Part shown: positions 15,390-36,684 of the stretch, piece by piece
Layout of the letters: every line of letters starts with the position of its first letter
Numbering within the stretch: position 1 is the first letter of the stretch
DNA from: Anaerolineae bacterium
GTDB lineage: Bacteria > Chloroflexota > Anaerolineae > Promineifilales > Promineifilaceae
Length of the DNA: 64,000 bases
Direction: 5' to 3'
Assembly: GCA_023954475.1 (NCBI GenBank)
Contig: JAMLHW010000001.1
Location: forward strand, 558,001-622,000
Notes under the pieces: generated by a model
Told to the model about the DNA's origin: nothing
Seen by the model: the letters and a program-made list of their open reading frames with translations, nothing else
The model's database searches: none
Made by a program: the position numbers and the translations under genes

Positions 15390-17102
15390 TCACCCATAGA
15401 GCGCGTCATTGGTGTCATCAAGAAAATCCTTTGTACTGTGTTTTGCCCGTGCTTGTGGCGTGTCTTTGCCGCGCATGTCGGCGTAAAAATCGTCATCGTA
15501 GCGGCGTGAGCGCACCGGAATGGGCATTTTGACGCCCCAGCCGAGCAGCAGAACCTCTTCTTTTTCCTGCAAACGCGCTAACATGCCGCGCAACTGGTCG
15601 CGTCCTGCCAGCCCGCTGAGTACGGCGCGGATGTCGTCTTCGTCGCCCAGCCAGCCAGTGATGCGTGTGCCGAGCTGTGACATGATCTCATCGTCAATGC
15701 CGGATGGCCGCTGATCGATGACGAGCAGGGTGACGTAATATTTGCGCAGTTCGCGGGCGATGATACCGAACGATGTATGTCTGGCAAGCTGCGGGTTGAG
15801 CAGTTTGTGTGCTTCCTCGATGGCGATCATCAACGGTTTTGGTGCAGGGGCGCCGTCGCTCTTGTGTTTGTTGGTCAGTTCGACCCAATGGGCGCGGATG
15901 CGGCGCGTCAGGATGTTGCTGACCAGCAAATAGTCGAGATCGCTTTCAAACTCGCCGAAGCTGAGTACGACGTGTTTGCCGTTCTGCAATTGGTCGACCA
16001 TCATCGAAACGGGGTTGATTTCTTTGTTAGTGACGTATGGTTTGCGGAAAATCGGGACGAGTTTGCGGTGCAGGGCTGTGGCTGATTTTTCATGGATGTT
16101 GTTGCTGCGCGCCCACGCTTCGACGGAATCGGGTGCAGGGTATTTCTTGACCTTGCCGTTTTCGTCAACGACTTCTTCTGTTTTACCGGGCACGAGGGCC
16201 ATGAATTCGCGGAACCAGTTATTGCTGAAGCTGTTTTCGAGCGCGTCGAGGACGATGGTGGCTGATTCGTTGAGGCCGATGGCGTCGGAGAGCAGCAGCA
16301 TGTCGCTTGCCAGGAAGTCGGACGTGGGCAGTTCGAGCGTGAAGTCGGGCGTTTTGCCGCGAATGGTCGCGCCTGCGCCGAGTGCGGCGAGTTGGACCCG
16401 GGTTCGGCCGAATAAATCTCTCAGACCTTCCACTCGCACACCCCGGTCCGAATCGGTGTCGCCGACGCCGTATTCGTTGTGCATGTCAAACACCAGGGCC
16501 GATGCGACATCTCCCTTCATTACCCCGGCCAGCACCATGCGCGTGAGGAAACTCTTGCCGGTTCCTGTCGCCCCAAAAATGCCGCTGGAACGCTTGACCA
16601 GCTTGCCTAAATCGAGCTTGACGGGATGATGCGGTTCCTCAATCGTCGTCCCGATTACAAAATCACCCCTGAAAATCAGTTCCACGTCAAAAGCATCGGC
16701 CAAACGTACTGGCGAATGGTGGGCGGGTACGGTTTTGACCGGGCGCGGACTGATCTCGCCCTGGTCGGCGCGTTCCTGCCATTCCCAGTACCCATCCTTG
16801 TCTACTTCGATGTCAGGCTGATTTTCCACCATCAGGGTAGGGAACATCGTCAATGTGGTGAACAAGGTCTTGCCCAGAATCTGGGCGCGGATGGCCGGTT
16901 GCAGCCGGTCGCCTTGCTCGTCGGCAAAGCGCGGATCGGTGGCGCCGAGCTGGAGATCGGTGATCAGGCCAAAGTAGCGCCACGGCCCGCTGTCGCAGAC
17001 GACGAAGCTGCCTTCCTGCACCTGGTCGGCGGGGATAGTGAGGCGGATGTTGAGACCTTCCTTGAGGCCGCCGCCGACGACATAGCCAATTGTTTCATTC
17101 AT
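15390..17102 (-). CDS. herA: HerA-like DNA translocase ATPase
   Basis: A 570-residue FtsK/HerA-superfamily ATPase. An N-terminal HAS-barrel (about 1-110, with FVVCDSGPWRYFGLITDL) is followed by the motor domain with Walker A GATGTGKSFLTRMV near residue 197, Walker B LMIAIEEAHKLL near 425, and the arginine-finger/QRP region LLVIDQRPSGIDDEI. HerA forms hexamers that pump DNA and pairs with the NurA nuclease for end resection. It is the last gene of a four-gene minus-strand cluster: methylase, NurA-like, HAS-barrel protein, HerA. The role could be recombination repair or phage defence; sequence alone does not decide. Confidence 0.9.
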   Translation of the reverse strand: MNETIGYVVGGGLKEGLNIRLTIPADQVQEGSFVVCDSGPWRYFGLITDLQLGATDPRFADEQGDRLQPAIRAQILGKTLFTTLTMFPTLMVENQPDIEVDKDGYWEWQERADQGEISPRPVKTVPAHHSPVRLADAFDVELIFRGDFVIGTTIEEPHHPVKLDLGKLVKRSSGIFGATGTGKSFLTRMVLAGVMKGDVASALVFDMHNEYGVGDTDSDRGVRVEGLRDLFGRTRVQLAALGAGATIRGKTPDFTLELPTSDFLASDMLLLSDAIGLNESATIVLDALENSFSNNWFREFMALVPGKTEEVVDENGKVKKYPAPDSVEAWARSNNIHEKSATALHRKLVPIFRKPYVTNKEINPVSMMVDQLQNGKHVVLSFGEFESDLDYLLVSNILTRRIRAHWVELTNKHKSDGAPAPKPLMIAIEEAHKLLNPQLARHTSFGIIARELRKYYVTLLVIDQRPSGIDDEIMSQLGTRITGWLGDEDDIRAVLSGLAGRDQLRGMLARLQEKEEVLLLGWGVKMPIPVRSRRYDDDFYADMRGKDTPQARAKHSTKDFLDDTNDALYG

Positions 17103-17898: not shown

Positions 17899-19098
17899 TC
17901 ACATGCTGAACCGTTTTTTGCCACTGCGCGTCAGGTTTTTGCCGATCTGTTTGCCTGTGTCTTGCACTGTCAGGCCACGCCGCTGCAATTCTGATTGCAC
18001 GAGCCGGTCCAGATAATCGCGATCATCACCACGCACGACAGCGACCTCATCAGCGCGGGTCAAAATGTATGGATAACTGCCGAGTTGTGAGCATTGATCG
18101 TCGAGCAGCGCGTGAATCTGCGCGATCACTTCCGGTTGTTGCGCGGCCCATTTGGGTACATCGACGCGGGCAATGTCGCCCAAACCCGGCGGACAATAGT
18201 AAAAAAAACAGATTTCCTGGTTCTTTTCCTGAAATTTGCTGTAATTGGTCGAGTTGTTGACGATTTCGAAGACACAACTGCGTTCGCCAGGTTGCAAAAC
18301 ACGCCTGAAAATCGCAGCATCACTCATCTGAGGCCGCTCTATTAACCGTTCCGGTTTGAAATCTTGGGTGCCCATGTCGAGCGTATACAACAAGGTGATG
18401 ATCGCGCCGGTTTCCGGGCGTTCAATGTAACCCGCCAACCATGCGCCACATTGTTGCATTATCGCCATCGCTTCTACCCAGCGCTTGACTGCGTCTTGCT
18501 GGGCAACAGAATCCTGGACGCCAATCGGCCAATATTGCAGGCGTTGATCGAGGATGGCGAGCAACGGCGTGGTTGCCGTGCGATTTTCCCAGACCGTGCG
18601 CGCCAATAGCTCGATTTCGCCCATGTCGCGGAGTACGGTGACGGCGACGGCGGTAAAATCTTTGTCGTCCGTCTCCTCATCATCCCCGTGAAAATAGAGT
18701 TGCGGGTCACTGAAAATCTCGGGTGCCTGATCGGTTCCGCGTTCGTAAATGATGCCGCCGATGTTGATGAGGAAGTAGGGGTAAGACTGATGGCGTGAGG
18801 GCATCGTTTGTGAGCCGTCGACGCTGATGAAGGTTGCCTGGGGTGGCGGCGGTGCGGGCGCGATGCCTGCGTTGAGCGGTTCGGTTTGCGTCAAGGGGCG
18901 GGCGGCGCGATATTTTTGTTGATCGACGATACTGACCGCTTTTTCCAGGCTCAAATCGATATGTGACCATGCTGTGGCGTAGCGATTGAGCTTGTCGAGC
19001 AGGTCGTCGAGTTGGTGTGCGGAGGCGTCGCGCCGTTTTTCGGCCGAATCGCCCAAGGCTCGCACCTGATCAATCACACGTTCAAATTCAACAGACAT
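17899..19098 (-). CDS. nurA: NurA-like 5'-3' nuclease
   Basis: A 399-residue protein. The NurA domain starts with FISVDGSQTMPSRHQ near residue 92, where the aspartate of the VDGS motif is a predicted metal ligand, and continues with an RNase H-like arrangement. A second acidic cluster lies in YTLDMGTQDF near residue 243. The C-terminal segment carries ADEVAVVRGDDRDYL and a basic tail. An N-terminal helical region (about 1-60) precedes it. It starts two bases after the methylase stop, so translation is coupled. NurA works with HerA, encoded two genes downstream. Confidence 0.85.
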   Translation of the reverse strand: MSVEFERVIDQVRALGDSAEKRRDASAHQLDDLLDKLNRYATAWSHIDLSLEKAVSIVDQQKYRAARPLTQTEPLNAGIAPAPPPPQATFISVDGSQTMPSRHQSYPYFLINIGGIIYERGTDQAPEIFSDPQLYFHGDDEETDDKDFTAVAVTVLRDMGEIELLARTVWENRTATTPLLAILDQRLQYWPIGVQDSVAQQDAVKRWVEAMAIMQQCGAWLAGYIERPETGAIITLLYTLDMGTQDFKPERLIERPQMSDAAIFRRVLQPGERSCVFEIVNNSTNYSKFQEKNQEICFFYYCPPGLGDIARVDVPKWAAQQPEVIAQIHALLDDQCSQLGSYPYILTRADEVAVVRGDDRDYLDRLVQSELQRRGLTVQDTGKQIGKNLTRSGKKRFSM

Positions 19099-19100
19099 GG

Positions 19101-21081
19101 TTATTCCAGCAGCGTTTTCCAGCGATGTGCCACTTCAAGAGGCGACAACTCCGATTGTAGCAAAGCTCCCAATGCCGTGCCGCAACTCTCACAAAATGCG
19201 CGGCTGTCGCTTTTGTCGATAGTGTCGGGCGTGGCCCAGATGCGACGCTGGTTTTCGGCCGATGCCAGCACGAGAATGACATCATGCAGCAGTGCATTCT
19301 GATTAGCGATGTGAATTGACGTGAGGTTTTCCGCATGCACCACGTAGCGATTGACAAGCGAGAAACCAGATTGCATCAGCGCCACGGTAAGTGCCGCCCA
19401 CGCCTGTGGTTTCCAATGGTGAAATGTGAAGATCAAGCGGCCATCCGGACGCAGCACACGCCGACATTCACCGAAAATTGCACCGAGAACGGCGTCATAC
19501 TGACCGTTGCCGTTTGCGTGTTGATCGACGGCGGCGGCGTTCAAATCGTAATGCCAGGTTGCGTCGTCGGGCAGCATCTGACATAGCCAAACACGAAAAT
19601 AGGCGGCCAAATCGCCGTATTGCACGCTGTCGAAGTAGGGCGGATCGGTGACAACAAAATCGACGGTTGCATCAGGCAAGGGCAATTCGGCCGAACTGCC
19701 CTGAAGCAGCATGAAACGCTGTTTGCCCTCGCACAAGTGATTGTAGCTGGTTACTTCGCGGCCGATCGATCTGGATGGGTACGGTGGCCCCAAATCGCCG
19801 TCGATGCGGCGTTCGACCGGTTGGGCTGCCCAGCGTTTGCCCTGTGCCAATCGGCCGAAAAAGAGTGCGCAGCGTGCCGGATGTGCGCCGCTCGTACAGC
19901 GGATTGACTTCCAGCGCCGTCGCCGGAATCGTGTAGGCGTGTCGGGTGAACGTGTGACGAACGGCGCCCGGTCTACTCTTCAACGCGCCTTTGTAGCCGC
20001 ACAACAGCGAGTTGAATTCCAGTGACGTGGAGAGCAAGAGGGCAAAATTGAGCCGTACCGCAGGTTCAAATGTGCTGATGATGTCGCAGGCATGGCGCAG
20101 AAACAGCAATTGGCGGCTGCTAAAGACGTCGAGGTAGCTGGCGGCACCGTGTTGACGTAAATTGTCTGATTTGGGGCCGGGCGCGAGCGGAAATTCGGCC
20201 GAATCAAAGCCCAATGTATCCCGCATTTCGTCGAGAACGGCGCTGCGCTCCCGGTCGCTGTGACGTGCGGGCAAATAGCGCAGCCCCGTGTGTGGGCAGT
20301 GGGTGACGACGGCGAATGGCTCGTAGCGGCGGAAAAAGGGTTGTGAGCTGTCAGCGCGATAGACGACATGGCAGCGTGGACACCGTTTGTCTTTCTTGGC
20401 GACAAACGGCAGCGGATTGAGTTGGTCGCCGGCGGCAATGATCTGTCCGTCGTGCATCACAGCGCCATTCTCTGGGTCGATATGGACAATGGAATCGTCG
20501 CTATTGTGGCGCAGCACAAATGAATCGACGAGGCGTACGTTGCGGCAGTCACATGCGGCACACAGGCTGTAGAGTGTGAATTGTACTGCGTGTGTGTCTC
20601 CACAGTCGGGGCAGTGGGTCGCGTAGTGGTGCCCCATTGCGCTTTGCAGTTTGTCGAGCAATGTGTGGAATGCATGCTCCAATCGGCCGATGTCGATCTC
20701 GGTCAATGCCGCACGCGCCTGCAAAATCGGGATGGGATCGATATCTGCACCGATGACGTTGGCGTTGAGTCGCACGGCTTCATGCACGGTCGTGCCGCCG
20801 CCCATCATCGGATCGAGGATGATTTTGCCCTCCAGGCCGCCGGACGCGTAAAAGGCACATTGCTCACCGTCGGTGACGAGGTGCTTCAAAATGGCGCGAA
20901 ATGTCGTGCCGCAGCGTCGCGCCCACCATTTGTGCAGGTAGCTGTTCGGCCGATAATGATGCTTGTTGTACGTTTCTTGCTGTGCGAGCGCGTCGACAAA
21001 GTCTACATCGAACGCGTCGTCAATGGGGAAGCTTTCAGGCACAACCGCCCTGGGAGACTTATGTGGTTGTGCTGCACTCAT
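19101..21081 (-). pseudogene. DUF1156-type DNA methyltransferase interrupted by a frameshift
   Basis: The N-terminal part (from ATG 21081) reads to about 19863 and contains NSYLHKWWARRCG (the LHxWWARR motif of DUF1156 methylases), the SAM-binding motif DPMMGGGTTVHEAV, and ADIDPIPI. An inserted zinc ribbon follows (HCPDCGD, CAACDC, and RCPRCH). The C-terminal part carries the catalytic DPPYFDSV motif, in another frame. The two frames join cleanly at a run of five T residues in the coding strand (19858-19862): with one T fewer the protein reads RTLFGRLAQGKRWAAQPVERR without a break, about 659 residues. This could be an assembly error, a true mutation or frameshifting. It is the first gene of the NurA/HerA cluster. 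Confidence 0.8.
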
Positions 21082-21249
21082 ATGTGAACATCCTCTTTGC
21101 ACTATCTGTCATTGCAAAGTGTAGCAGGAAGCAGACAGGCAGCCAACGACCAGGCATGGCGTAGAGCGTTTTCAATTTTCGTCTATGCGTTGAAGATGAC
21201 ACATCATTCGGCCGAAAACAGGAAACCTCATAGCGATTCAATCCGTCAC

Positions 21250-21321: not shown

Positions 21322-22491
21322 ATGACAACATATGATCTCGTATTTGAAGGCGGAGGCGCTAAGGGCATGGTATTTGCCGGCGCATTGCAGGCGTTTGAAG
21401 AAGCAGAATACGAACAAGGCCGACTCATGGGCACATCGGCCGGTTCGATTACCGCCGTTTTGCTCGCTGCCGGTTACATGGTTGACGACATTCTGCCGTC
21501 ATTGAGCGAAAAACTGGAAGACGGCACGCCCCGGTTTGCCACATTCATGGGCGTCCCCGAATCATTCTCGGACGATGTGCTCAATGCCAGTTTGATCAAG
21601 AAAGTGTTGACCAGTATTGATTTGCCGCTCATTCCCGAATCATGGGAAGGTGAAGCGGACAAAGCAATTATTCGTGGCTTGCTCAAATCGCGCATCTATC
21701 GCCACATTTTCTCGTTTGAAGAGGCCGGTGGACTGTATTCGGCCGATGCATTTGTCGAATGGCTGATAGAAAAACTCGACGCTGACGGACGCAATCTCAG
21801 CGACAAGTCATTGGCGCAGTTCCACGAAGCCACTGGACGTCACTTGACCGTCATCGCAGCCGACATCACCGAAGGTCAGATGTTGGTTCTCAACCACAAC
21901 ACCGCGCCCGATTTACCCGTCGTCATGGCAGTGCGCATGTCAATGAGCGTGCCACTGCTCTGGCAAGAAGTGATCTGGCAGGCGAGCTGGGGTACATACC
22001 GCGGCGACGACATCGCTGGACACGCTATCGTCGACGGTGGCCTCGTTTCCAACTTTCCCATCGAACTGTTCCTCTCAACCTCGCCGCATGTCGTGGCCTT
22101 GATGGGTGAACCAAGCGAAGACGTGTTGGGTTTTCTCATCGACGAGAAGAAAGAGGTGCCCGATGCGCCCGATAAACCTGGTGTCGTTGACGATAAATCC
22201 GGCATTGATCTGGGCCAGGTAGCATCTGTGCGTCGTATTGCCGGTTTGGCTAATACAATGAGCCAGGCACATGATAAATTTGTCATGCGCGACTACAAAA
22301 GTAAAGTGGTCCGACTGCCTGCCAAAGGGTACGGGACAACCGAGTTTGACATGACGGATGAACGACGGGAAGCGTTGATTAGGGCGGGTTATGATGTGAC
22401 CAAAACCCATTTCGAAACGCCGACATTTGAGACCGGTCTCTTCGATCAGGAAGCTATTGACGATGTGGCGGAAAGTATGTTGATGCCGTAA
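21322..22491 (+). CDS. Patatin-like phospholipase
   Basis: A 389-residue lipid acyl hydrolase. The oxyanion-hole motif GGGAKGMVFAGAL lies near residue 11 and the nucleophile GTSAGS near residue 38. The catalytic Asp is in DGGLVSNFP near residue 235. There is no signal peptide, so it is cytoplasmic. GGGAGGA lies six bases before the ATG. The 3' end overlaps the convergent NTPase gene by 38 bases. Patatin enzymes occur in housekeeping lipid turnover and as defence effectors; no sensor gene lies beside it, so housekeeping is likelier. Confidence 0.93.
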   Translation: MTTYDLVFEGGGAKGMVFAGALQAFEEAEYEQGRLMGTSAGSITAVLLAAGYMVDDILPSLSEKLEDGTPRFATFMGVPESFSDDVLNASLIKKVLTSIDLPLIPESWEGEADKAIIRGLLKSRIYRHIFSFEEAGGLYSADAFVEWLIEKLDADGRNLSDKSLAQFHEATGRHLTVIAADITEGQMLVLNHNTAPDLPVVMAVRMSMSVPLLWQEVIWQASWGTYRGDDIAGHAIVDGGLVSNFPIELFLSTSPHVVALMGEPSEDVLGFLIDEKKEVPDAPDKPGVVDDKSGIDLGQVASVRRIAGLANTMSQAHDKFVMRDYKSKVVRLPAKGYGTTEFDMTDERREALIRAGYDVTKTHFETPTFETGLFDQEAIDDVAESMLMP

Positions 22492-23750: not shown

Positions 23751-24563
23751 TTATGGGGCTACACTGTGCCATAGGGGGCCATGGCCGGCACCGAGCTGCC
23801 AATCGGCAGCAGCCCGGATGGCAGCCTGTGTGAAAGCGCGGGCGCGGTTAATGGCCGTTGTCAGGTCATCGCCTTGTGCCAGGTAGGTAGCGATGGCGGC
23901 CGAAAGGGTGTCGCCGCTCCCGTGGGTGTTGCGTGTGGGAATTGTTTCGGCCGAAAAGCGCACTACCTCACCGCTCACTGCCAACAGATCAAGTATGTTG
24001 CCTGCTTCCGGTACGCCGGTGAGCAACACGGCGGTGGCGGCCGCGAGCGATAGTTGACGTACTGCGCGTTCTGCGTCCTCGACTGTCTGCAGCGGTTTTC
24101 CGGTCAATAGAGCAGCTTCATGCCGGTTGGGGGTGATCAGGTGAGCGAGCGGAAACAAATGCGTGCGATAAGCAATGGCAATTTCGGCCGAAAACATGGC
24201 TTCACCGCGATGGTTCACCAGAATGGGATCGACGATGATGGGACAGGTGACGTGCTGTAGCGCCTGGGCGATGGCATGGATGAGGTCGATTCGGCCAATA
24301 AACCCCGTTTTGATGCCGTCTGCACCGTAATCGTCGAGCACCGTGCGGATTTGCAATGCCAGGAAATCCGGCGCTGCAAACTGGACACCGGCAACAGTCA
24401 GGCTGTTTTGTGCTGTCACGGCAGTCAGCGCCGACATGCCGTAGACGCCAAGCACCGTCCACGTTTTCAAGTCGGCTTGAATACCGGCCGCCCCGCCGCT
24501 ATCGGAACCGCCGACAGACAGGAGTTTTGTTGGTTGTGGTGTTGAGTTTTTAGTGTTTAGCAT
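23751..24563 (-). CDS. thiD: Hydroxymethylpyrimidine/phosphomethylpyrimidine kinase
   Basis: ThiD phosphorylates HMP and HMP-P for thiamine synthesis. The ribokinase-like fold is shown by LLSVGGSDSGGAAGIQADLKT near the N-terminus, YGMSALTAVTAQNS, VDPILVNHRG, and the anion-hole motif THGSGDTLSAAIATYLAQG near residue 212. I start it at the ATG at 24563 since the family begins just before LLSVGGSDSGG; an upstream in-frame ATG at 24608 has no ribosome site. No other thiamine gene is in the window. It diverges from the large NACHT gene. Confidence 0.9.
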   Translation of the reverse strand: MLNTKNSTPQPTKLLSVGGSDSGGAAGIQADLKTWTVLGVYGMSALTAVTAQNSLTVAGVQFAAPDFLALQIRTVLDDYGADGIKTGFIGRIDLIHAIAQALQHVTCPIIVDPILVNHRGEAMFSAEIAIAYRTHLFPLAHLITPNRHEAALLTGKPLQTVEDAERAVRQLSLAAATAVLLTGVPEAGNILDLLAVSGEVVRFSAETIPTRNTHGSGDTLSAAIATYLAQGDDLTTAINRARAFTQAAIRAAADWQLGAGHGPLWHSVAP

Positions 24564-24594
24564 TTCGATCGGTTTATTCAGAAAGATCGGCAGC

Positions 24595-24628
24595 GAACAT
24601 GTGTTCATGTTCTATATTCTGATAAAAT
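24595..24628 (+). promoter_or_regulatory. Inverted repeat and -10 region of the NACHT-nuclease gene
   Basis: GAACATG-TGTT-CATGTTC (24595-24612) is a perfect seven-base inverted repeat. TAAAAT (24623-24628) lies six bases before the ATG at 24635. The repeat covers the position expected for a -35 element, so a regulator bound there would control a leaderless transcript. Low certainty. Confidence 0.4.
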
Positions 24629-24634
24629 CGTACC

Positions 24635-27600
24635 ATGACAAAGCAAATCTACAAATGGCAACGTTTCTGGCAGAAAAGAGGCTCCCAATCGAACAGACAA
24701 GACTCACTTGGATTCTTGTACAGAGTAAGCGATTTCGTTGACTCTACCTATGCTGGAGATAACGACGCTAAATTACTCGAAGAATTGCTGGACATACCAT
24801 GTCTGATACTGTTGGGTGAACCAGGTATGGGAAAGAGCTTCATACTGTCTCAAGTTTACGACAAACTCACACAAGATACCGAGTATGGTAAATGCGAATG
24901 GTTGAACTTACGTGATTATTCAGGCGTCAAAGATATCATTGATTCGCTATTCATAGATAATCCGGTGTTTGATGAGTGGGTAAGAGGGAATTTCACGCTT
25001 CATTTGTTCTTTGATAGCTTGGATGAATCTCCGATCTCATCCGATACGTTGGGCAGGCAGTTACATCGCATAATTGAACGATATTCTGACAAGCTTTCAG
25101 ATATTCGATTGTGGATCGCTTGCCGGATAGTCGATTGGCCTATTGAGATGGAAACACATCTCCAAGCGATATGGGGCAAGGACAATGTGCAAGCTTACGA
25201 GCTAGCTCCTCTTCGTAGACAGGATATCGAACTAGCATTGCAAGCGAATGACATCAATTCTGATGTATTCTGGCGAGAGGTTAGCAACGCCGATGTCGAT
25301 TCCTTTGTTGCGCGTCCGATTACGCTGGATTTCTTGCTTAACGAGTTTCAACGCGAAGGTGCCAGACAACTGCCGACATCGAAGTATTCTCTCTACAAGT
25401 CTGGTTGTTTGAAGCTTTGCCGGGAGGCTCCCGATGACCAGCATCGTCGAAGAGAGCTAGAACCAGAACAGAGATTTGAGATTGCAGCCCGCATCGCCGC
25501 TTATACGATATTTTGCTTCAGAAGTGGTGTTAATCTAGCTGGGCCTCCAATTCACGACAACACCTTCCTGGAATTGCGTTCTGTTGTGGGAGAGACCGAA
25601 ACTATATTCGATTTCTATTTTCCAGTGTATGAGGCCGACGTTCGAGAAACCTTGGAAATGCCACTCTTTTCTGGTGGTGATGTTCGATCATGGACTCATC
25701 AAACCTATGCTGAGTTTTTGGCTGCACATTATGTGGTCAATCGTCTTGAAACGAAGCAGATCATAGATTTGCTTTATCATCCGTCAGGTAAGTTGGTCCC
25801 ACAATTGCGCGGAGTAGCCGCCTGGATCTCGTCACTGAATCACGAAATACTTGGTTCGATTCTCGATTCCGATCCCGAAGTGCTGCTTATGGGGGATACT
25901 GCGCCTGAATCAGAACTGCGACAGCGTATTCTGCAATCACTTCTGCAAGAAATAAATCTCAACATCTACCGGCGCTTGCAGGACAAACATTTCCGCAGGT
26001 TGAAATACCCGACAATGAATGTTGATCTGGATCATGTTCTTGCTGACAAGACCTGTTCTTACATTGCAAGAGTAGTAGCGGTACAGATCGCGATTGAGTG
26101 TGAGGTCACCGAATTAGTTGAGCGGCTAACGATTATCGCCCTTGATGATTCTGAGGAGGTTGTAACGAGAAGCCGAGCATCTCATGGTGTCATGAAACTT
26201 GGCACAAGAGATGAAAAGTCAAAGCTAAAACCTCTTGCCTTCCTGTCGCTTGCTAAGAACAGAGATTTGGGTGAGTTGAAAATTGATGGCATACGAGCGA
26301 CATGGCCACACGCACTCACCTTGACCGAACTATTTGAATGTCTGGAAGCGATCCCGAGAGGTTCTTTAATTGATACCTACTCGACCAAAGATTGGACTTC
26401 CCTAATCCTTCCGCATCTAACATCTGAGAATATTCACATAGCGTTTCATTGGTTGCAGCAGCAGAATTGGACAAATGGCGACTTACTAATCGAAATGGGG
26501 CGGTTGGTGGACGGCATTCTTGAGCAAGGATGGAATCTGCTTGATCAACCTGGTGTGTTGCCTCATTTCGCAGACCTCGTGCTAGCAATGTGGGATCAAG
26601 GTGCTGATGTGTTGATCGAGCGGTCTGGGAAACGATATTTTACAAGCTACGGAAACCGCCACCAAACTGGAGTGACAAGGGAAATGGCGCTTGCGGACTC
26701 TGCAAGACGGTATCTGCTCTTCGAAGGTATTTTGGCGAAGATCGGTCTTGAACCTGAAACTGTTTATAAATACGCCTATCGCTTTGTTCATGATTTACCT
26801 TTGATGTCACGAAATGATTTGGACTTTCTGATTTCGAACTATGACTTAGCGGAATTAGCTGAAACGAAAGCCCTAATCGCCAACATAATTCAGCGATTAC
26901 TAAATGTTAATGATCCAGAGCTGTTTCAAATAGCATGGAAAATCAAGGAAACAAATGAGGATCTTTGGAAAGCACTTGGGATTGTTCTGTTTGTAGAATT
27001 ATCATCTGAGTCCGCTCATAAGCAACGCGAACTTTACAAGCAACAGCAAGAATGGGAAAAAGACATACTGCCTTCAGAAGAGATTGTAAAAGATCATCGG
27101 CCATCACCGTATAAATATGTGTCTACAGTGCTGCAACAGCAGAATCTCAATGCAAATTCATGGTGGATGATTAGCAGAGCACTCAAATGTGCTGAGGATT
27201 GGCACTACGATCTAGTAGATACTTTTGAGTCCGATGTAAGCAGGTTGCCCGTCTGGCAACAACTTAATGAGTCGCAGCAGTCATATTTCTTGGAATACGC
27301 AGGATACTATTTGCATGAATACAAGCTGAATCACCAAACTTGCCACTCGGACAGTTGGTGGCATAAGTACAATTGTATCTATTGGCCTATTGTGGCTGGT
27401 TGCCAAGCATTTTCCCATTTATGGCATCACAACACATTACAGACTGTCCCAGTTCACGTGATTAAAGACTGGGCTGCGGCCCTTTGCTATTATTTTTACC
27501 GAGCAAGTGATGTTACAAACGACGAAAGGAAGAATTGGCATATCGAGCATTTGATCCAGCTAAAACTGATCGCTCCTGAAGAATTCCACGAGACGATCCT

Positions 27601-28951
27601 CTGGATAGCTGATATTGAATGCAAGAGAGGTGCCTTTGCTGAGTTGCCAAGCACGCTTAAGAACTTTTGCGATGATTTGTTAGCTGAAGAGTTGCTGGTT
27701 CGTGTCGAGAATGGCTTGTTCCCTCAAGAACAGGTTGCGAGGTATTTGGATGTATTGTTACAATGTGCCCCAATACGAACACGAGAAAAGATTCGAAAAT
27801 GGTTTGTTATTATTGAACATGCGGTTGTTACTAATCAGGATTTTTTGAGGAGTGTCGGTTTTGCCCTTTTACAAAGCGAAGAGATTGAAGACGTAGAACT
27901 TGCCGTTGATCTCATGCTCCAGTTCCCTGAGGTCGGCAAGTCGCTCATTAACATACACAATTTGTGGAGAGATACTGTTTGGACACGAATCGAAGAATTG
28001 AAGTTGGCGAATCTCTATCTTTGGGTAAGAAACGAGCACCCTCCTGAAGATGATCCACCAGACGAATCACGTCCGGGTCGCATGACCAGGGTTACACCGG
28101 AACTAGCAGTTGCCAGATTTCGTGACAGTTTATTACGACATTTGGCTAATCGCGGAACAGATGAGGCGATCATTCAGATTCAGCGCATTAGTGAAGTTCT
28201 GGCCATTAATCTCGATGAATATATGAATGATGCCCGAGAAACAATGTTGAATAAGACTTGGCAACCAATAGATCCTTCTCAACTAAAAGCGTTGTTGCAG
28301 AGTAATCAGATACGCTGGATCCGGACTGAGTCACAGCTTCTCGGTGTGATAGTGGATAAGCTAGAGCAATTGCAGTCTGAGTTACAGGGAAAGGAAAGGG
28401 CAACTTCCAGTTCGATTGATCTATGGAACGAGTCTCGGAAAACGATTGACAACAATGGGTGCAATAGGCGCACTACCTTAAGAACGCCAAAAGATGAAAA
28501 CCGACTGTCTGACTACATCGAACGATTTCTGACAAGAGAATTGAAGCAAAAAAAGGTGTTAGTTGATCGTGAGGTTCAGGTCGAGCGAGGAAACTTTACT
28601 GATATATTGATAGAGACATTCCCTGAAGGTTTGGAGCGGGATTCTAGCGCGTCCATAGCTGTAATCATCGAAGTCAAAGGTGATTGGCATACTGATGTTT
28701 ACAAGGCAATGAGAGAGCAATTGGCGGATCGTTATCTTGCTCCAAAAGGAATGCATCATGGAGTGTACTTGGTAGGGAAATTCTTTTGCTCACAATGGGA
28801 TAATGAAGATGATCTCAGCCGCTGGGAAGCAAGCCAACGTCACAATTCACGTGATCTTGTTGGAGTCTTGTCTTCCCAAGCAGAAGATTTGAGTCGTCAG
28901 CACTTCAACATCGCTTTGATTGTTCTGGATTGTACATTACCTGAATCGTAG
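24635..28951 (+). CDS. NACHT/STAND NTPase with C-terminal PD-(D/E)xK nuclease, putative defence protein
   Basis: A single 1438-residue protein. The NTPase core has Walker A LLGEPGMGKS (residues 61-68), a NACHT-type Walker B LFFDSLDE (about 124-131) and a sensor segment LWIACRIVDW (about 159-168). Residues about 250-1250 are mostly helical and probably act as the sensor, with no recognisable repeat. The C-terminus, from about residue 1285, is a restriction-endonuclease-like fold with Asp1323 in NFTDILIE and Glu1346/Lys1348 in VIIEVKGDW, the D-(n)-ExK catalytic triad. The gene is visibly richer in A/T than its neighbours, lacks the TCGGCCGA octamer and has no ribosome site, all signs of acquisition. 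NACHT/STAND proteins that carry nucleases serve in antiphage immunity by abortive DNA cleavage; that role here is inference. No partner gene is adjacent. Confidence 0.85.
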   Translation: MTKQIYKWQRFWQKRGSQSNRQDSLGFLYRVSDFVDSTYAGDNDAKLLEELLDIPCLILLGEPGMGKSFILSQVYDKLTQDTEYGKCEWLNLRDYSGVKDIIDSLFIDNPVFDEWVRGNFTLHLFFDSLDESPISSDTLGRQLHRIIERYSDKLSDIRLWIACRIVDWPIEMETHLQAIWGKDNVQAYELAPLRRQDIELALQANDINSDVFWREVSNADVDSFVARPITLDFLLNEFQREGARQLPTSKYSLYKSGCLKLCREAPDDQHRRRELEPEQRFEIAARIAAYTIFCFRSGVNLAGPPIHDNTFLELRSVVGETETIFDFYFPVYEADVRETLEMPLFSGGDVRSWTHQTYAEFLAAHYVVNRLETKQIIDLLYHPSGKLVPQLRGVAAWISSLNHEILGSILDSDPEVLLMGDTAPESELRQRILQSLLQEINLNIYRRLQDKHFRRLKYPTMNVDLDHVLADKTCSYIARVVAVQIAIECEVTELVERLTIIALDDSEEVVTRSRASHGVMKLGTRDEKSKLKPLAFLSLAKNRDLGELKIDGIRATWPHALTLTELFECLEAIPRGSLIDTYSTKDWTSLILPHLTSENIHIAFHWLQQQNWTNGDLLIEMGRLVDGILEQGWNLLDQPGVLPHFADLVLAMWDQGADVLIERSGKRYFTSYGNRHQTGVTREMALADSARRYLLFEGILAKIGLEPETVYKYAYRFVHDLPLMSRNDLDFLISNYDLAELAETKALIANIIQRLLNVNDPELFQIAWKIKETNEDLWKALGIVLFVELSSESAHKQRELYKQQQEWEKDILPSEEIVKDHRPSPYKYVSTVLQQQNLNANSWWMISRALKCAEDWHYDLVDTFESDVSRLPVWQQLNESQQSYFLEYAGYYLHEYKLNHQTCHSDSWWHKYNCIYWPIVAGCQAFSHLWHHNTLQTVPVHVIKDWAAALCYYFYRASDVTNDERKNWHIEHLIQLKLIAPEEFHETILWIADIECKRGAFAELPSTLKNFCDDLLAEELLVRVENGLFPQEQVARYLDVLLQCAPIRTREKIRKWFVIIEHAVVTNQDFLRSVGFALLQSEEIEDVELAVDLMLQFPEVGKSLINIHNLWRDTVWTRIEELKLANLYLWVRNEHPPEDDPPDESRPGRMTRVTPELAVARFRDSLLRHLANRGTDEAIIQIQRISEVLAINLDEYMNDARETMLNKTWQPIDPSQLKALLQSNQIRWIRTESQLLGVIVDKLEQLQSELQGKERATSSSIDLWNESRKTIDNNGCNRRTTLRTPKDENRLSDYIERFLTRELKQKKVLVDREVQVERGNFTDILIETFPEGLERDSSASIAVIIEVKGDWHTDVYKAMREQLADRYLAPKGMHHGVYLVGKFFCSQWDNEDDLSRWEASQRHNSRDLVGVLSSQAEDLSRQHFNIALIVLDCTLPES

Positions 28952-28962
28952 GATGTTTGCAT

Positions 28963-31227
28963 TCACTCACGACTTTTAGTTTGGGAGAACAAGAGGAGTA
29001 GAAGCAAAATTACTACACAGGTTAGTAGCGAAACGAGTATCGCAATTTTCCAGACAGGTGGACGGAACTGCATGGCGACGGTGTGTTGGCCTGCTTCGAG
29101 GTAAATAGCCCGGAAAGCGGTGTTGGCTTTCAGGATTTCGGCCGATTCCCCGTTCACCGTCGCCTGCCAATGCGGATAGTACATGTCGCTGAGCAAGAGA
29201 TAACCCGGCGCATCTGTCTGCACATCAATTCTGACCTCATTGAGCCAGTACCCGACAACCTCAATCCGGTGCGCCGCCGGTTCCTGCTCCAGCGCAGCGC
29301 CGTCTGTCAAGTAAATGACCTGGTCCGGTGCGAAATCCGGCGCGTGAATGGCATCAAACACCGCCTGATCGTCGGCCAGCACTGTGGCGCGATACACCAT
29401 CATCACGCGTGGCAGGGCGCGGGTGTTGAGGTAAATGTCTACATTGGGATCATCGGCAAAGACGGGCACGAGAAAAGCTGTATCACCGGGCGGCTCTGTT
29501 TTGTCGGCAACGATGTATTTGACGCCGAGTAGATTGTACGGCGGCGATCCGCGATAACCGAGCGACTGCATGTAGACGTCGTAGTCGGAAAGTGCCAGCG
29601 GATTGAAAACGCCGCCGATGGCGTAGAGGCCGTGCAATTGTGCCGCGCTCGGCTGCCAAGCACCGGTCGCCGCGTCGATGCGGTTTAGTCCGGCGTTGGC
29701 CTGCAAAAATGTGGTTGCACTCTCGTTTTGGTAGCCGGTTGTAGGATCGTTGCGATCGATTTCGACCGATTGGCCGTTGGCGATCAATTCGGCCGAAACC
29801 AGACCCAACGCCAACCAACCAAACAATAGCGCCGGCAACCAGCCGATCAGCCGCAGCCAGACAAGCCCCCAACCCAGCGTCGCCGCCACCGCAAAACCTA
29901 CCACTGCCTGCTGCATTTGCTTTGCCGGGCCATCAACCTGTCCCATCAACCATACCAGACCCAGTACCATCCCAACTAGCATCCCACCCACAAGCACCCA
30001 ATCCCATCGTCTGCTTCTCTGCATGACCGCTGTGGTCAACCCATTTGCCGCAATTGCCGCTAGCAGCGCCACACAGAAATTGACCAACACGATAAACCGT
30101 GCCGGAACCTGAAACGGCAGTGCCAACGGCTCAAAAATCAGCCGGTGTGTCGCCGTGTTACTGCCCAACGCCAGCAGCAGAAAAAAGAGAGCGGCGACGA
30201 CAAAAAACAGATTGTGTCGTGTGCGGTAGCGCAGCACAGCGATCAGCGCTAGTAGCCATGGCATCACGCCGAGATAACCGACTTCGACGCGCGACCAATC
30301 ACCCCAGAAACTGAGTGCACCTCGGCCGAAAAAATTCGGTGCGGCAATGCCGGTCAATCCCAGCCACGGCAGCGAATAGTTGACTGATTGGGCATAGCTG
30401 AATGTGCCGCGCACTGTCTCGCTACGCAAAACGACAGCGGGCAGCACATTGACGGCAGCCAATCCGACGCCAATCAATCCGGCGACGGCCAACCAAGCCA
30501 GCGGATGCCATGTCCGGCCGATCAGAATGCAATATACGGCATAGATACCGAGGAAAAAGGCGATAAAAAACGTCATCTGACCGTGCCCGGCAAGGGTGCT
30601 GATGCCGATGAGGACGCCGCAAGCCAGTGACCACGCCAGGGATGCGGCAACGCGGTGGTGGAAGGATGGCGTGACGGCGCGATGGAATGACAGAAAGATC
30701 AGGGGCAACCAGGCGATGACGGCGATCAGGTTATAGTTGCCAACATGGGTGACGAACAGGTCGGAGAGCATGAAGGCGACAGCGGCGATCAGGGCGGGTA
30801 TCGGCCGAATTCGATCCCGATCGCGCCAGCCACGTGCGCACGCATACATGCCCACGCCGGCTAGAAAGATGTGCCCGACAACCAATCCTTCCAATGCCGC
30901 ATAGCTAAACGTCGGCCAAAGCACAAACAACAGCCAATTGATCGGATAAAACATTCCGTTCTGATTGTCGGCAATCAGCGGAAAACCGGCGTATTGGTGT
31001 GGATTCCACAGAGGGATTTCGCCATTGCTGATGCCGGCAGCGATAAAGCGATACATTGGGTAGAGGAATGAGACATTATCGCCGCCGCCGTGTGGCAGCC
31101 ATGCACCGCCAAACAATACCGGGCGAAAAAAAAGTGCAGTGATCAAGGCAATGAGCAGGATTGCTCCGCCGTCGCGCCAATATCGGCCGAAACGCAACGC
31201 GTCAGCCCGCGAAGTTACCGTTTGCAT
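28963..31227 (-). CDS. YfhO-like polytopic membrane protein
   Basis: A protein of about 754 residues with about 12 transmembrane helices followed by a C-terminal extracytoplasmic domain and a final helix (IAILVSLLTCVVILLLLLLF). Near the N-terminus GDNVSFLYPMYRF and later IPLWNPHQYAGFPL are typical of the YfhO/GT-C-like family, whose Bacillus member is needed for lipoteichoic acid glycosylation. The C-terminal ADMYYPHWQATVNGE-like segment (DMYYPHWQATVNG) is characteristic. I chose the ATG at 31227; TATAAT stands six bases before it, so the transcript is probably leaderless. Confidence 0.85.
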   Translation of the reverse strand: MQTVTSRADALRFGRYWRDGGAILLIALITALFFRPVLFGGAWLPHGGGDNVSFLYPMYRFIAAGISNGEIPLWNPHQYAGFPLIADNQNGMFYPINWLLFVLWPTFSYAALEGLVVGHIFLAGVGMYACARGWRDRDRIRPIPALIAAVAFMLSDLFVTHVGNYNLIAVIAWLPLIFLSFHRAVTPSFHHRVAASLAWSLACGVLIGISTLAGHGQMTFFIAFFLGIYAVYCILIGRTWHPLAWLAVAGLIGVGLAAVNVLPAVVLRSETVRGTFSYAQSVNYSLPWLGLTGIAAPNFFGRGALSFWGDWSRVEVGYLGVMPWLLALIAVLRYRTRHNLFFVVAALFFLLLALGSNTATHRLIFEPLALPFQVPARFIVLVNFCVALLAAIAANGLTTAVMQRSRRWDWVLVGGMLVGMVLGLVWLMGQVDGPAKQMQQAVVGFAVAATLGWGLVWLRLIGWLPALLFGWLALGLVSAELIANGQSVEIDRNDPTTGYQNESATTFLQANAGLNRIDAATGAWQPSAAQLHGLYAIGGVFNPLALSDYDVYMQSLGYRGSPPYNLLGVKYIVADKTEPPGDTAFLVPVFADDPNVDIYLNTRALPRVMMVYRATVLADDQAVFDAIHAPDFAPDQVIYLTDGAALEQEPAAHRIEVVGYWLNEVRIDVQTDAPGYLLLSDMYYPHWQATVNGESAEILKANTAFRAIYLEAGQHTVAMQFRPPVWKIAILVSLLTCVVILLLLLLFSQTKSRE

Positions 31228-31233
31228 GGGGCG

Positions 31234-31239
31234 ATTATA
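31234..31239 (-). promoter_or_regulatory. -10 hexamer of a probable leaderless promoter for the YfhO-like gene
   Basis: A perfect TATAAT on the minus strand ends six bases before the ATG at 31227. There is no good -35 hexamer. Confidence 0.5.
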
Positions 31240-31464
31240 GCGGATTGGCAACTGTTTGGCGTGGGTCAACCGTCCTGGCGCACCAGACAATTGACTGAGG
31301 TTTACGCATCGAATAGGTGTGATTTGATGTTTCCGTTGTCTTGCAGTCGATCAGTTTCGCGTGATATTCGTCCTGTCAGGTACAATTCGGCATGTACTAT
31401 TTGAATTGAAACGGCAAGCAGCCAATCATTTGAGCATGCGCACTACAAACAACATGGAAACGAC

Positions 31465-33783: not shown

Positions 33784-36684
33784 CTATTGACCAATTGCCT
33801 TTCTGGCCATTGCGAGCATGTCGTCAATGCCATCCGGAGGCTGTGGTGCCGATTGCAGTAACTCATAGTCGGTGGTGGTGAGCACATCAGCCGGCCCACG
33901 ACTGTCGAGAGCGTCAACCAGAGCAGCCATTGCTTCGTCTTTGCGTTCCAAGAGCAATAATGCCAGCGCCCTGTTCTCAAATAAACCAGATCGTGATTGG
34001 ATACCCTTCTGTTGCACAGTGTCCCAGATTTCCAATGCCTGTTCGCAATAAGTGCGGCTTTGTATTGTGTCGCCGTCGTGCCGTGAAAGAATACCCAGCA
34101 TTACCAATGCATTGAGCGCAGTTTGCGGTTCAAGCCGAATACGCTCCTCGTAATGCTGCATCGCTTTTTTATTTTCCCCTTTCTCGACAAATGCATCAGC
34201 TAAATTATTGTGTAAGTAAGCGTAGTCAGGATCGAGGTCGAGTGCTGTTTGGTAGGCGGCGATGGCGTCGTCCGTGCGGCCGAGGGCGCTGTACACATTA
34301 CCCAGGCTGTTCCACGGATGAGCGAAGTCGGGGTCGCGCTCGATGGCTGTTTGGTAGGCGGCGATGGCGTCGTCCGTGCGGCCGAGGGCGCTGTACACAA
34401 TGCCCAGACCGTTCCACGGAGAAGCGAAGTCGGGGTCGCGCTCGATGGCTGTTTGGTAGGCGGCGATGGCGTCGTCCGTGCGGCCGAGGGCGCGGTACAC
34501 ATTGCCCAGACCGTGCCACGGATAAGCGTAGTCGGGGTCGCGCTCGATGGCTGTTTGGTAAGCGGCGATGGCAGCATTATGTTCACCCCCAAGATACATT
34601 GCGACCCCTAATCGATACCATGCACTCGACTTTTCTGGTAACCATGTAACCACTTTGGGCATTATGCGCATTGCCTCAGACGAGTAGGCAGCATTACTTG
34701 TCCCGGCAGGCCAAAGAAACTCGCCAGCGAGCGTGTACAATGATTCCCCCAATTTCTTCTGCAAAGCTTCGCCATCTTCGGGCAATCCGGTTTCACATTG
34801 TAGATACGCTTGCAATGCTTCTTCATAGCGTTCTTGCTTGAAGAGCCATTGACCTCGCTGCCAGGCAAGAATGGCGTTGCGCTCCGCTTCCCCTGCGCCG
34901 ACCAGCCAGTGGCGCTGCTTGCGCAATTCCTCCAGCATCTCTTCGTTTGGGGTAGAATCAAATAATTGAAACGATCCAGACCGTCCACTTTCTAATTTTT
35001 TCAGGCGAAGCTGACCACGACGACTAAATGTGTCCTGCCAGTCACGCGCCTTGTTGAGCAAGCCTGCACGCAAATCACGACTATAGGCCAGACTTTCCAC
35101 AAAACGCGGCAACAACCATTGCCATCCCTCCCGTTCATCGAGACCAAACAGGTAGCCGGCCAGATCAATCGCCACCTGACTCCATTCCTCGTCTTCACAG
35201 CGCTCCTCGATCAGCGGTATTTCCTCTTCCAGTTCGGCGATCTGCTGACGCAATGCTGCTACAGCTCGTTGATACAGTTGTCTTACCTGCGGGCGCTCCC
35301 GTTGTTCTGCTCGCCGCAAAAGCGCACGGAGATAGAGAGCCGGTTCGTCGTGCAGTCGCATTTCCTCCAGATGAACCGAAGCGTACGCTCGCTGCAACAT
35401 CTCGACCCGTGCCAGCCAATCAAACGCTGGCGCGTCGTCTGGCGTCAACATTGCCCTTAAAATACGCTGGTTGCCTTGCGCCAGCGCCAGGGCATAGAGT
35501 GCCTGCCGATCATCTTCTTTGACGACATGCAGGAGATAGCGTCCCGTCATCTCACCGACAATGTCACGAGCGGGCAGGCGACGGCTCGTATCGCCAACAA
35601 TGTCGGCTGCGTCCGTACCCTTCGCCCACATTTCGGCGGCTACCCGCAATGCCAGTGGAATACCGCGTGTGGCCTGGTTGACCATCTGTGCCTCCTCATC
35701 GCTCAGAGGACGATCAGGCACCATAGCTGCAAAATACGCTTGCAAATCAGCCAGAGCCAATTCGGGCAAATCATATGCCAGCAAGCGCGGTGCAAATTGG
35801 GCTTCATATCCCAGGAAGTAGTCTGTACCATAACTGCGACTCTTGGCTAGGTTGTCGCGACCGCTGATCAGCCAGACGATGCGCGACCCTGCGTCCGCGA
35901 TGACCTTGCGCAGCCAGTGATCGGCATAATCGACGATTTCGTACGTGTCCAAAACCAGCAATAAACGTCTGCGTTGCGCAATCTTTCCCAACCCATCTGC
36001 CAAAGCGGAAGCCAATTGTGCTTGCGGCTGCAAATAAATGTTGAACTGTTCCGGTTTGAGACGGCTCTTGAGGCGTGTTTGTAGCACTTCAGACAGCTTC
36101 CGGGCTTGCTCAGTCGTCAGTTTGAGGCCGACATCGGCGGCGGCAGCCACCCATTTCTCGCCCGTGTCACCGATTGGGACTTGTGAAAAATTGCGCACCA
36201 ATTTGCCTACGGCGTCAGCGCTGAGTGAACGCAGCGCAGATGTTTCTCCAGCCCAATCTCCCGCCAGTGCCTGAGCAGCGGCATGCTCGGCTTCAGCCCG
36301 CTGATCGACGATACGTTGATACGCTTTGAAATGCCTGCCCCATTTCTGGCGTATGGCAGCGGTATGGATCGTGTCAAATACGGTTTCAGGCGTGATATTT
36401 TCGCGACCGCCTTGCAAATGCGGATTGAGTCGGCGTTCTTCTTCCCAATCGATCCAGAGCAGTTCAAACTCACCCTCAAATGGCGCTTCCCAGCGCACAA
36501 TGTCGCGCAAGCGCTTGCTGAGTGTGGTCTTGCCCATGCCGCCATCCCCGTAGAGCAGGATGACATAGGGATTGTCGTTGTCATTGTACGGATCGAGCAC
36601 TTCGCGCATGGCGGCGCGGAATGCGTTCTGCTGCTGCACACGTCCGAGAAAGAGCGCTTTGTCGACGTAAATTGGCTGATCCAT
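33784..36684 (-). CDS. STAND-type NTPase with C-terminal TPR repeats
   Basis: A 966-residue protein. The P-loop GDGGMGKTT lies at 46-54, Walker B in RLLLVLDTYE near 244 and the sensor segment LISGRDNLA near 271, followed by a winged-helix-like region. The C-terminal third holds TPR units: at least four consecutive 34-residue copies beginning AIAAYQTAIERDP, encoded by nearly identical 102-base repeats at about 34230-34600. No catalytic effector domain is recognisable. STAND proteins are switch ATPases in signalling, transcription control or immunity. Like the NACHT gene it lacks the TCGGCCGA octamer across its whole length. It follows the ABC-F gene on the same strand, with a terminator-like hairpin between. 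Confidence 0.85.
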   Translation of the reverse strand: MDQPIYVDKALFLGRVQQQNAFRAAMREVLDPYNDNDNPYVILLYGDGGMGKTTLSKRLRDIVRWEAPFEGEFELLWIDWEEERRLNPHLQGGRENITPETVFDTIHTAAIRQKWGRHFKAYQRIVDQRAEAEHAAAQALAGDWAGETSALRSLSADAVGKLVRNFSQVPIGDTGEKWVAAAADVGLKLTTEQARKLSEVLQTRLKSRLKPEQFNIYLQPQAQLASALADGLGKIAQRRRLLLVLDTYEIVDYADHWLRKVIADAGSRIVWLISGRDNLAKSRSYGTDYFLGYEAQFAPRLLAYDLPELALADLQAYFAAMVPDRPLSDEEAQMVNQATRGIPLALRVAAEMWAKGTDAADIVGDTSRRLPARDIVGEMTGRYLLHVVKEDDRQALYALALAQGNQRILRAMLTPDDAPAFDWLARVEMLQRAYASVHLEEMRLHDEPALYLRALLRRAEQRERPQVRQLYQRAVAALRQQIAELEEEIPLIEERCEDEEWSQVAIDLAGYLFGLDEREGWQWLLPRFVESLAYSRDLRAGLLNKARDWQDTFSRRGQLRLKKLESGRSGSFQLFDSTPNEEMLEELRKQRHWLVGAGEAERNAILAWQRGQWLFKQERYEEALQAYLQCETGLPEDGEALQKKLGESLYTLAGEFLWPAGTSNAAYSSEAMRIMPKVVTWLPEKSSAWYRLGVAMYLGGEHNAAIAAYQTAIERDPDYAYPWHGLGNVYRALGRTDDAIAAYQTAIERDPDFASPWNGLGIVYSALGRTDDAIAAYQTAIERDPDFAHPWNSLGNVYSALGRTDDAIAAYQTALDLDPDYAYLHNNLADAFVEKGENKKAMQHYEERIRLEPQTALNALVMLGILSRHDGDTIQSRTYCEQALEIWDTVQQKGIQSRSGLFENRALALLLLERKDEAMAALVDALDSRGPADVLTTTDYELLQSAPQPPDGIDDMLAMARKAIGQ
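34230..34600. repeat. Tandem 102-base TPR-coding repeats
   Basis: Near-identical units, each containing GGCGGCGATGGCGTCGTCCG on the plus strand, encode the TPR units of the STAND protein. Identity is much higher than TPR function requires, pointing to recent duplication or gene conversion and to copy-number variability. Confidence 0.85.

Follow-up and report, generated by a model that had tools for sequence, protein, structure and literature searches.

The question raised by this locus is what a 1438-codon gene does in a 64,000-nucleotide window of an Anaerolineae bacterium (GenBank assembly GCA_023954475.1, contig JAMLHW010000001.1, positions 558,001 to 622,000; the window means this whole stretch). 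A preliminary description, made from the sequence alone, had proposed that the gene fuses a NACHT NTPase to a C-terminal PD-(D/E)xK nuclease and is a candidate antiphage system. Here, it was interpreted, with a probability of about 0.72, as a single-gene immune receptor resembling the nucleotide-binding leucine-rich repeat (NLR) proteins, with a NACHT switch, a helical sensor and a C-terminal nuclease effector, and probably SOS-inducible; its presumed activity, set off by a presumed trigger, would be directed against phages. The open reading frame (ORF) proposed earlier was exact, and the NACHT and nuclease motifs were kept. The parts of the receptor are as follows, with residues numbered from the start codon and "relatives" referring to its homologs.

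24635..28951, plus strand: NACHT receptor with C-terminal PD-(D/E)xK nuclease; single gene, intact ORF, 1438 aa, ATG start
24650..24670, plus strand: YxWxRFW motif, residues 6–12; Y6, W8, R10 and W12 invariant in one alignment, W8, R10 and W12 at least 90% in another
24770..26014, plus strand: NACHT module, residues 46–460, comprising nucleotide-binding, first helical and winged-helix domains (NBD-HD1-WHD), predicted from the AlphaFold2 model compared with NLRC4
24815..24838, plus strand: Walker A GEPGMGKS, residues 61–68; G66 and K67 in 75 of 77 relatives
25004..25027, plus strand: Walker B LFFDSLDE, residues 124–131; D127 in 75, D130 in 76 and E131 in 74 of 77 relatives
25121..25126, plus strand: C163-R164, with a sensor-1-like arginine; R164 invariant in alignment A3
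25697..25726, plus strand: winged-helix HQTYAEFLAA with H355; H355 invariant in alignment A3, EFLAA nearly invariant
26015..28171, plus strand: helical HEAT-like superhelix, presumed sensor, residues 461–1179; all-helical in the AlphaFold2 model, alphaRep-type HEAT matches, conservation lowest at 601–800
28250..28300, plus strand: effector-exchange junction around TWQP, residues 1206–1222; receptors 67–78% identical diverge fully beyond it
28487..28948, plus strand: predicted PD-(D/E)xK nuclease domain, residues 1285–1438; BamHI Z 9.4, EcoT38I 8.7
28601..28603, plus strand: predicted catalytic D1323; invariant across 57 nuclease-bearing rows (alignment A2)
28670..28678, plus strand: predicted catalytic E1346-V-K1348; E and K invariant in the same 57 rows, the motif being shared with EruA and HyoA

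As only approximately 45 residues precede the NTPase, the protein has no N-terminal effector domain; the P-loop starts at residue 61, and no domain was found upstream of it. The signature of the NACHT clade, namely, a P-loop and a D-x-x-D-E Walker B with a small residue after the first D, was present. The sensor role of R164 was assumed from general knowledge of NACHT proteins, and H355 was taken to be the winged-helix histidine, as in NLRs. The structure was predicted with AlphaFold2 in two separate parts, residues 1–1195 (predicted local distance difference test score, pLDDT, 83.5; predicted template modelling score 0.70) and residues 1180–1438 (pLDDT 91.2). Residues 1–522 of the model were closest to NLRC4 (Z 17.9, 4.8 Å, 397 aligned), the match spanning the winged-helix part, and Foldseek on the N-terminal model gave Avs4 as its first match. 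Like NLRC4, the window protein has a predicted NACHT part, a winged-helix part and a part resembling the second helical domain; unlike NLRC4, it has no CARD, carries its nuclease at the far end and has a helical superhelix in place of leucine-rich repeats. The long helical sensor of the preliminary description was also seen in the model as a helical stretch of approximately 700 residues after the NACHT module. By its motifs, relatives and predicted fold, the window protein is a NACHT-type signal transduction ATPase with numerous domains (STAND).

The C-terminal fold had been named beforehand as a point on which the proposal could fail, and the model of residues 1180–1438 predicted the alpha-beta-beta-beta-alpha-beta core of PD-(D/E)xK nucleases, with D1323 by one strand and E1346 and K1348 on the next, which are the strands expected for them. 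The best matches of this part in VIA-align were BamHI (Z 9.4, 4.2 Å, 154 aligned) and then EcoT38I (8.7), followed by PaqCI, McrC (Z 7.7), Can2, FokI and NucC, mostly restriction-type and CRISPR-ancillary nucleases. A sequence search of the PDB returned no match to the whole protein and none to the nuclease profile, and Pfam on the nuclease domains gave two weak PDDEXK_3 matches and otherwise nothing useful. The C-terminus was thus assigned as a predicted nuclease core of the PD-(D/E)xK superfamily, which would cleave DNA or RNA.

The link to phage defense came from two families of the NCBIfam collection. In hmmscan, the window protein matched EruA (NF058535; 5.4e-72, 243.5 bits, curated cut-off 1000) and HyoA (NF058534; 3.7e-42, 144.1 bits, curated cut-off 1200). 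NF058535 is named "NACHT domain-containing antiphage protein EruA" at NCBI, and HyoA is likewise named antiphage. When the window protein and five relatives were aligned with the EruA alignment by hhalign, the probability was 100 (E 9e-49) over 1220 columns at 15% identity, while the nuclease domain alone gave E 1.6e-13 against EruA and 2e-6 against HyoA. EruA resembles the window protein over its full length, with NACHT first, a helical middle, a C-terminal PD-(D/E)xK domain and no N-terminal effector, and its nuclease shares the RxD, ExK and QL...Y motifs. HyoA also combines NACHT with the same C-terminal nuclease, with the window protein below its family cut-off. The plasmid-borne members or near members, namely, L018 and L023 (HyoA) and L019–L021 (EruA or near), carry this nuclease as well. 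Judged by these scores and alignments, the window protein is a distant relative of EruA from a sister clade, not a member. Because of the full-length homology to EruA and HyoA, both named antiphage, an antiphage role was considered the best reading, as the preliminary description had suggested. Its further remark that the domain order is inverted and unusual holds against canonical bNACHT and Avs proteins, but the order is not novel, as EruA and HyoA share NACHT first and nuclease last.

Evidence on the role of the C-terminus also came from its exchange among relatives. Relatives were gathered by a genome scan with two baits, one of them the nuclease motif, so that the set is not usable for effector frequencies. 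Among 77 full-length rows, 64 retained D1323, E1346 and K1348, one was ended by a contig edge, and 12 had a different C-terminus. The change sits just after the conserved RRxTWxP. Beyond it were found a CHAT domain (L069), CHAT plus a second NACHT (L024), a GT4-conflict glycosyltransferase (L008 and L022, E below 1e-100), an alpha/beta-hydrolase-like domain (L084 by a weak Pfam match, L096 through similarity to L084), a hydrophobic, membrane-type segment (L068, L073, L079 and L085) and a GDQIGTQ-type repeat sequence with helices (L064 and L091). L064 and L085 share 78% identity as far as the junction and are unrelated past it, and L035, which bears the nuclease, is 70% identical to L064. Frameshifting was considered as a source of the replaced C-termini and rejected, as no nuclease remnant was found downstream. 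On the tree of receptors, eight changes of the nuclease label are required, seven of them forced by well-supported branches; in a 36-row IQ-TREE tree, six changes were needed, and the approximately unbiased test rejected a single clade of the ten replaced rows (p 5.5e-5). Since receptors exchange modules at one junction, the C-terminus is, as far as these comparisons reach, an exchangeable effector slot, and this is independent evidence for its effector nature. This exchange sets the clade apart from EruA, in which none was seen in the few members examined.

Upstream of the gene lies a possible control site.

24595..24606, no strand assigned: LexA-type box GAACATGTGTTC (other strand GAACACATGTTC), 28 bp before the start codon; motif also upstream of lexA in relatives

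The box follows the pattern GAAC-N4-GTTC, the form that LexA boxes take in Gram-positive bacteria. The motif GAACACMYGTTC, drawn from lexA, recA and lexA-adjacent sites, occurred five times in the 5.12-Mb genome, against one occurrence of the reversed control. The five sites lay at recA, lexA, a gene adjoining lexA, the NACHT gene and one place with no obvious SOS gene. Of the LexA-type sites, the two at G000:C9:74642-74653 and G000:C1:108784-108795 lie one before a lexA-adjacent gene and the other with no obvious SOS gene. Among 48 genomes with an above-cut-off LexA match (52 family genomes examined), 18 had the motif 83–133 bp from the start of the LexA domain, and the same 12-mer, GAACACATGTTC, was found upstream of lexA in several relatives. 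Among the matches to the neighboring thiD gene listed for relatives, none falls at a site of this kind, so that the NACHT gene is the likelier target of the box. In this genome, the NACHT gene is probably a member of the LexA regulon and would be SOS-inducible through LexA binding at this site.

In the mechanism proposed from these features, the N-terminal NACHT module would act as a nucleotide switch, presumably driven by ATP, and the central superhelix would sense a cue derived from the invader. Recognition would release the NACHT module for oligomerization, thereby clustering and activating the nuclease, which may then cut phage or host DNA and either halt the infection or kill the cell. 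DNA damage, including that caused by the nuclease itself, would raise the receptor level via LexA control. A broader interpretation is offered tentatively, at somewhat less than even odds, in which the receptor belongs to a widespread NLR clade that carries its effector C-terminally, with at least six kinds exchanged as a cassette at the RRxTWxP junction, and is here wired to the SOS response such that its own cleavage amplifies its expression.

Several observations weigh against the interpretation as an SOS-inducible antiphage receptor. With 243 bits, the window protein stays far short of the 1000 bits required for EruA, and the Pfam NACHT model stayed below its gathering score (12.7 against 26.7 bits), with relatives in EruA and HyoA likewise weak or absent; the NACHT assignment therefore rests on motifs, relatives and predicted fold. 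Foldseek by itself gave the nuclease domain no better than E 0.02, and the call of a nuclease fold therefore draws on VIA-align combined with secondary structure and invariant residues. The LexA motif was noticed after the fact, via a terminator scan, which calls for caution, and the box is not a trait of the receptor family (one upstream match against 0.3 expected). Neighbors of relatives include GajB, pAgo, Drt2, AbiEii and restriction-modification methylases, which speaks for a defense role, although the count had no background control.

The same evidence bears on other explanations. The protein could be a restriction machine powered by NTP, in the manner of McrBC or a type IV enzyme, with the ATPase moving or remodeling DNA and the fused nuclease directly cutting DNA that is modified or foreign, without a cue from an invader protein. 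McrC is among the fold matches, and the AAA+ loaders RFC and ORC match the NTPase part of the model at Z 10–11; however, NLRC4 is a far better match, winged-helix part included, with the invariant H355 and nearly invariant EFLAA, and a slot that also holds non-DNA effectors (CHAT, GT4, hydrolase and membrane segment) fits a DNA motor poorly. This explanation was considered quite unlikely. It is unlikely, too, that the main targets of the gene are plasmids or other mobile elements in place of lytic phages, or that it chiefly serves as a suicide module linked to the SOS response. The LexA-type box and the occurrence of several relatives on conjugative plasmids would agree with such a role, whereas the antiphage names of both EruA and HyoA, and a box not common to relatives, speak against it. 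Finally, the lower GC content, the isolated position and the long branch of the gene in the tree would suit a decaying or silent acquisition without present function, which is very improbable with the 1438-codon frame intact and all active-site and NTPase residues kept.

The distribution and composition of the gene bear on how it reached this genome. The genome scan returned 79 loci in Cyanobacteriota, Bacillota, Chloroflexota, Acidobacteriota, Nitrospirota, Planctomycetota, Bacteroidota, Pseudomonadota and others, and the gene was rare in its own phylum (7 of 400 genomes). Wide conservation in syntenic position, which would have favored vertical descent, was not seen: with the window's genome counted in, 2 of 59 family relatives carry the gene, and in the other carrier (G031) it adjoins an amylase-like gene and shares none of the window flanks listed. 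Scans of genome contigs and viral contigs with the single protein found no relatives, and an alignment of six sequences had to be used instead. No match was obtained in phage records, and one was obtained in IMG/VR. As described in the preliminary account, the gene is AT-richer than its surroundings and lacks the palindrome of the genome. Its GC content was 44.4%, with 43.8% at third codon positions, compared with 52.8–58.3% and 56–65%, respectively, in seven nearby genes. The palindrome TCGGCCGA had 95 copies in the 64-kb window and 0 in the gene, where 6.4 were expected (Poisson P 0.0016, uncorrected for the lower GC). This palindrome is HIP1-like in its over-representation, the next commonest 8-base palindromes having 6 copies in 64 kb. 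From the patchy distribution and the foreign composition, the gene was most likely acquired horizontally. Neither flanking direct repeats nor a tRNA was found as an insertion mark at the gene. Across 52 family genomes, thiD and YfhO were used to look for an empty site; the two genes lie on different contigs in the compared pairs, and no syntenic empty site was shown.

The immediate neighbors are thiD (23751–24608, minus) and a YfhO-family membrane gene (28963–31290, minus), which agrees with the earlier statement that the gene stands alone between housekeeping genes. Further upstream, however, at 2–9 kb, are genes for a patatin phospholipase, a DNA methylase with a frameshift, NurA and HerA. 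The patatin-like gene (21322–22491, plus; GC 53%) gave weak PADLOC phospholipase-effector matches. The DNA adenine methylase-like gene (19672–21102, minus, running on in another frame towards 19000) matched the PADLOC models MTase_II and HmaB; it changes frame midway, with the catalytic DPPY motif in the second frame, and is either a frameshifted pseudogene or a sequencing error. Adjoining it, a HerA-type ATPase and NurA nuclease pair (15390–17102 and 17899–19098, minus) may serve DNA-end processing or be a piece of a defense locus. A 966-aa P-loop protein with C-terminal TPR repeats (33784–36684, minus; STAND-like) lies near galT and galK.

A conserved partner gene was sought among 757 neighboring ORFs of relatives and not found; all that recurred was an ABC-type ATPase, present in six loci at varying distances, and a VapC-like PIN gene, present in six cyanobacterial loci. 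The VapC-like PIN toxin gene lies approximately 260–330 bp downstream of the receptor in L057, L064, L068, L074, L079 and L085, whichever the effector. A related gene was observed within approximately 0.6 kb of the receptor in each of L024, L032 and L058; that of L032 starts like a calcineurin-type phosphoesterase and recalls DS-8, a NACHT-metallophosphatase defense protein (PMC13092281).

From described Avs and bNACHT proteins, the receptor differs in its order of domains. Avs/AVAST proteins (Avs4 and Avs5) are, like the window protein, STAND NTPases with a long helical sensor, and their effector lies at the opposite end; the PADLOC Avs models did not match the window protein, and JetB alone did (E 0.04). 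An effector-first, sensor-last order has been stated for all STAND NTPases, and bNACHT25 and bNACHT32 (clade 6 bNACHT) are NACHT receptors with an N-terminal PD-(D/E)xK effector and a C-terminal sensor (PMC12169576). bNACHT25 is a NACHT-controlled DNase, as proposed for the window protein, but with the domain order reversed. Classical STAND NTPases with a C-terminal GT4 glycosyltransferase have been reported (PMC8195603). Those fusions place GT4 on various STANDs, and L008 and L022 are such cases, whereas in the receptor family described here GT4 shares a single slot with several other effectors.

Two features are new within the literature searched, which left most subscription journals and preprints outside, namely, the cassette-like exchange of effectors in the clade and the LexA box. 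Through a LexA box, a receptor of this kind would couple NLR immunity to DNA damage. Descriptions of bacterial NLRs place the effector first and the sensor last, and a large effector-last clade poses the question of how a NACHT switch can govern a domain beyond a superhelix of approximately 700 residues. Moreover, receptors that are 67–78% identical and carry unrelated effectors are natural chimeras, which mark points for cutting and rejoining and imply that the sensing function can be separated from the killing function.

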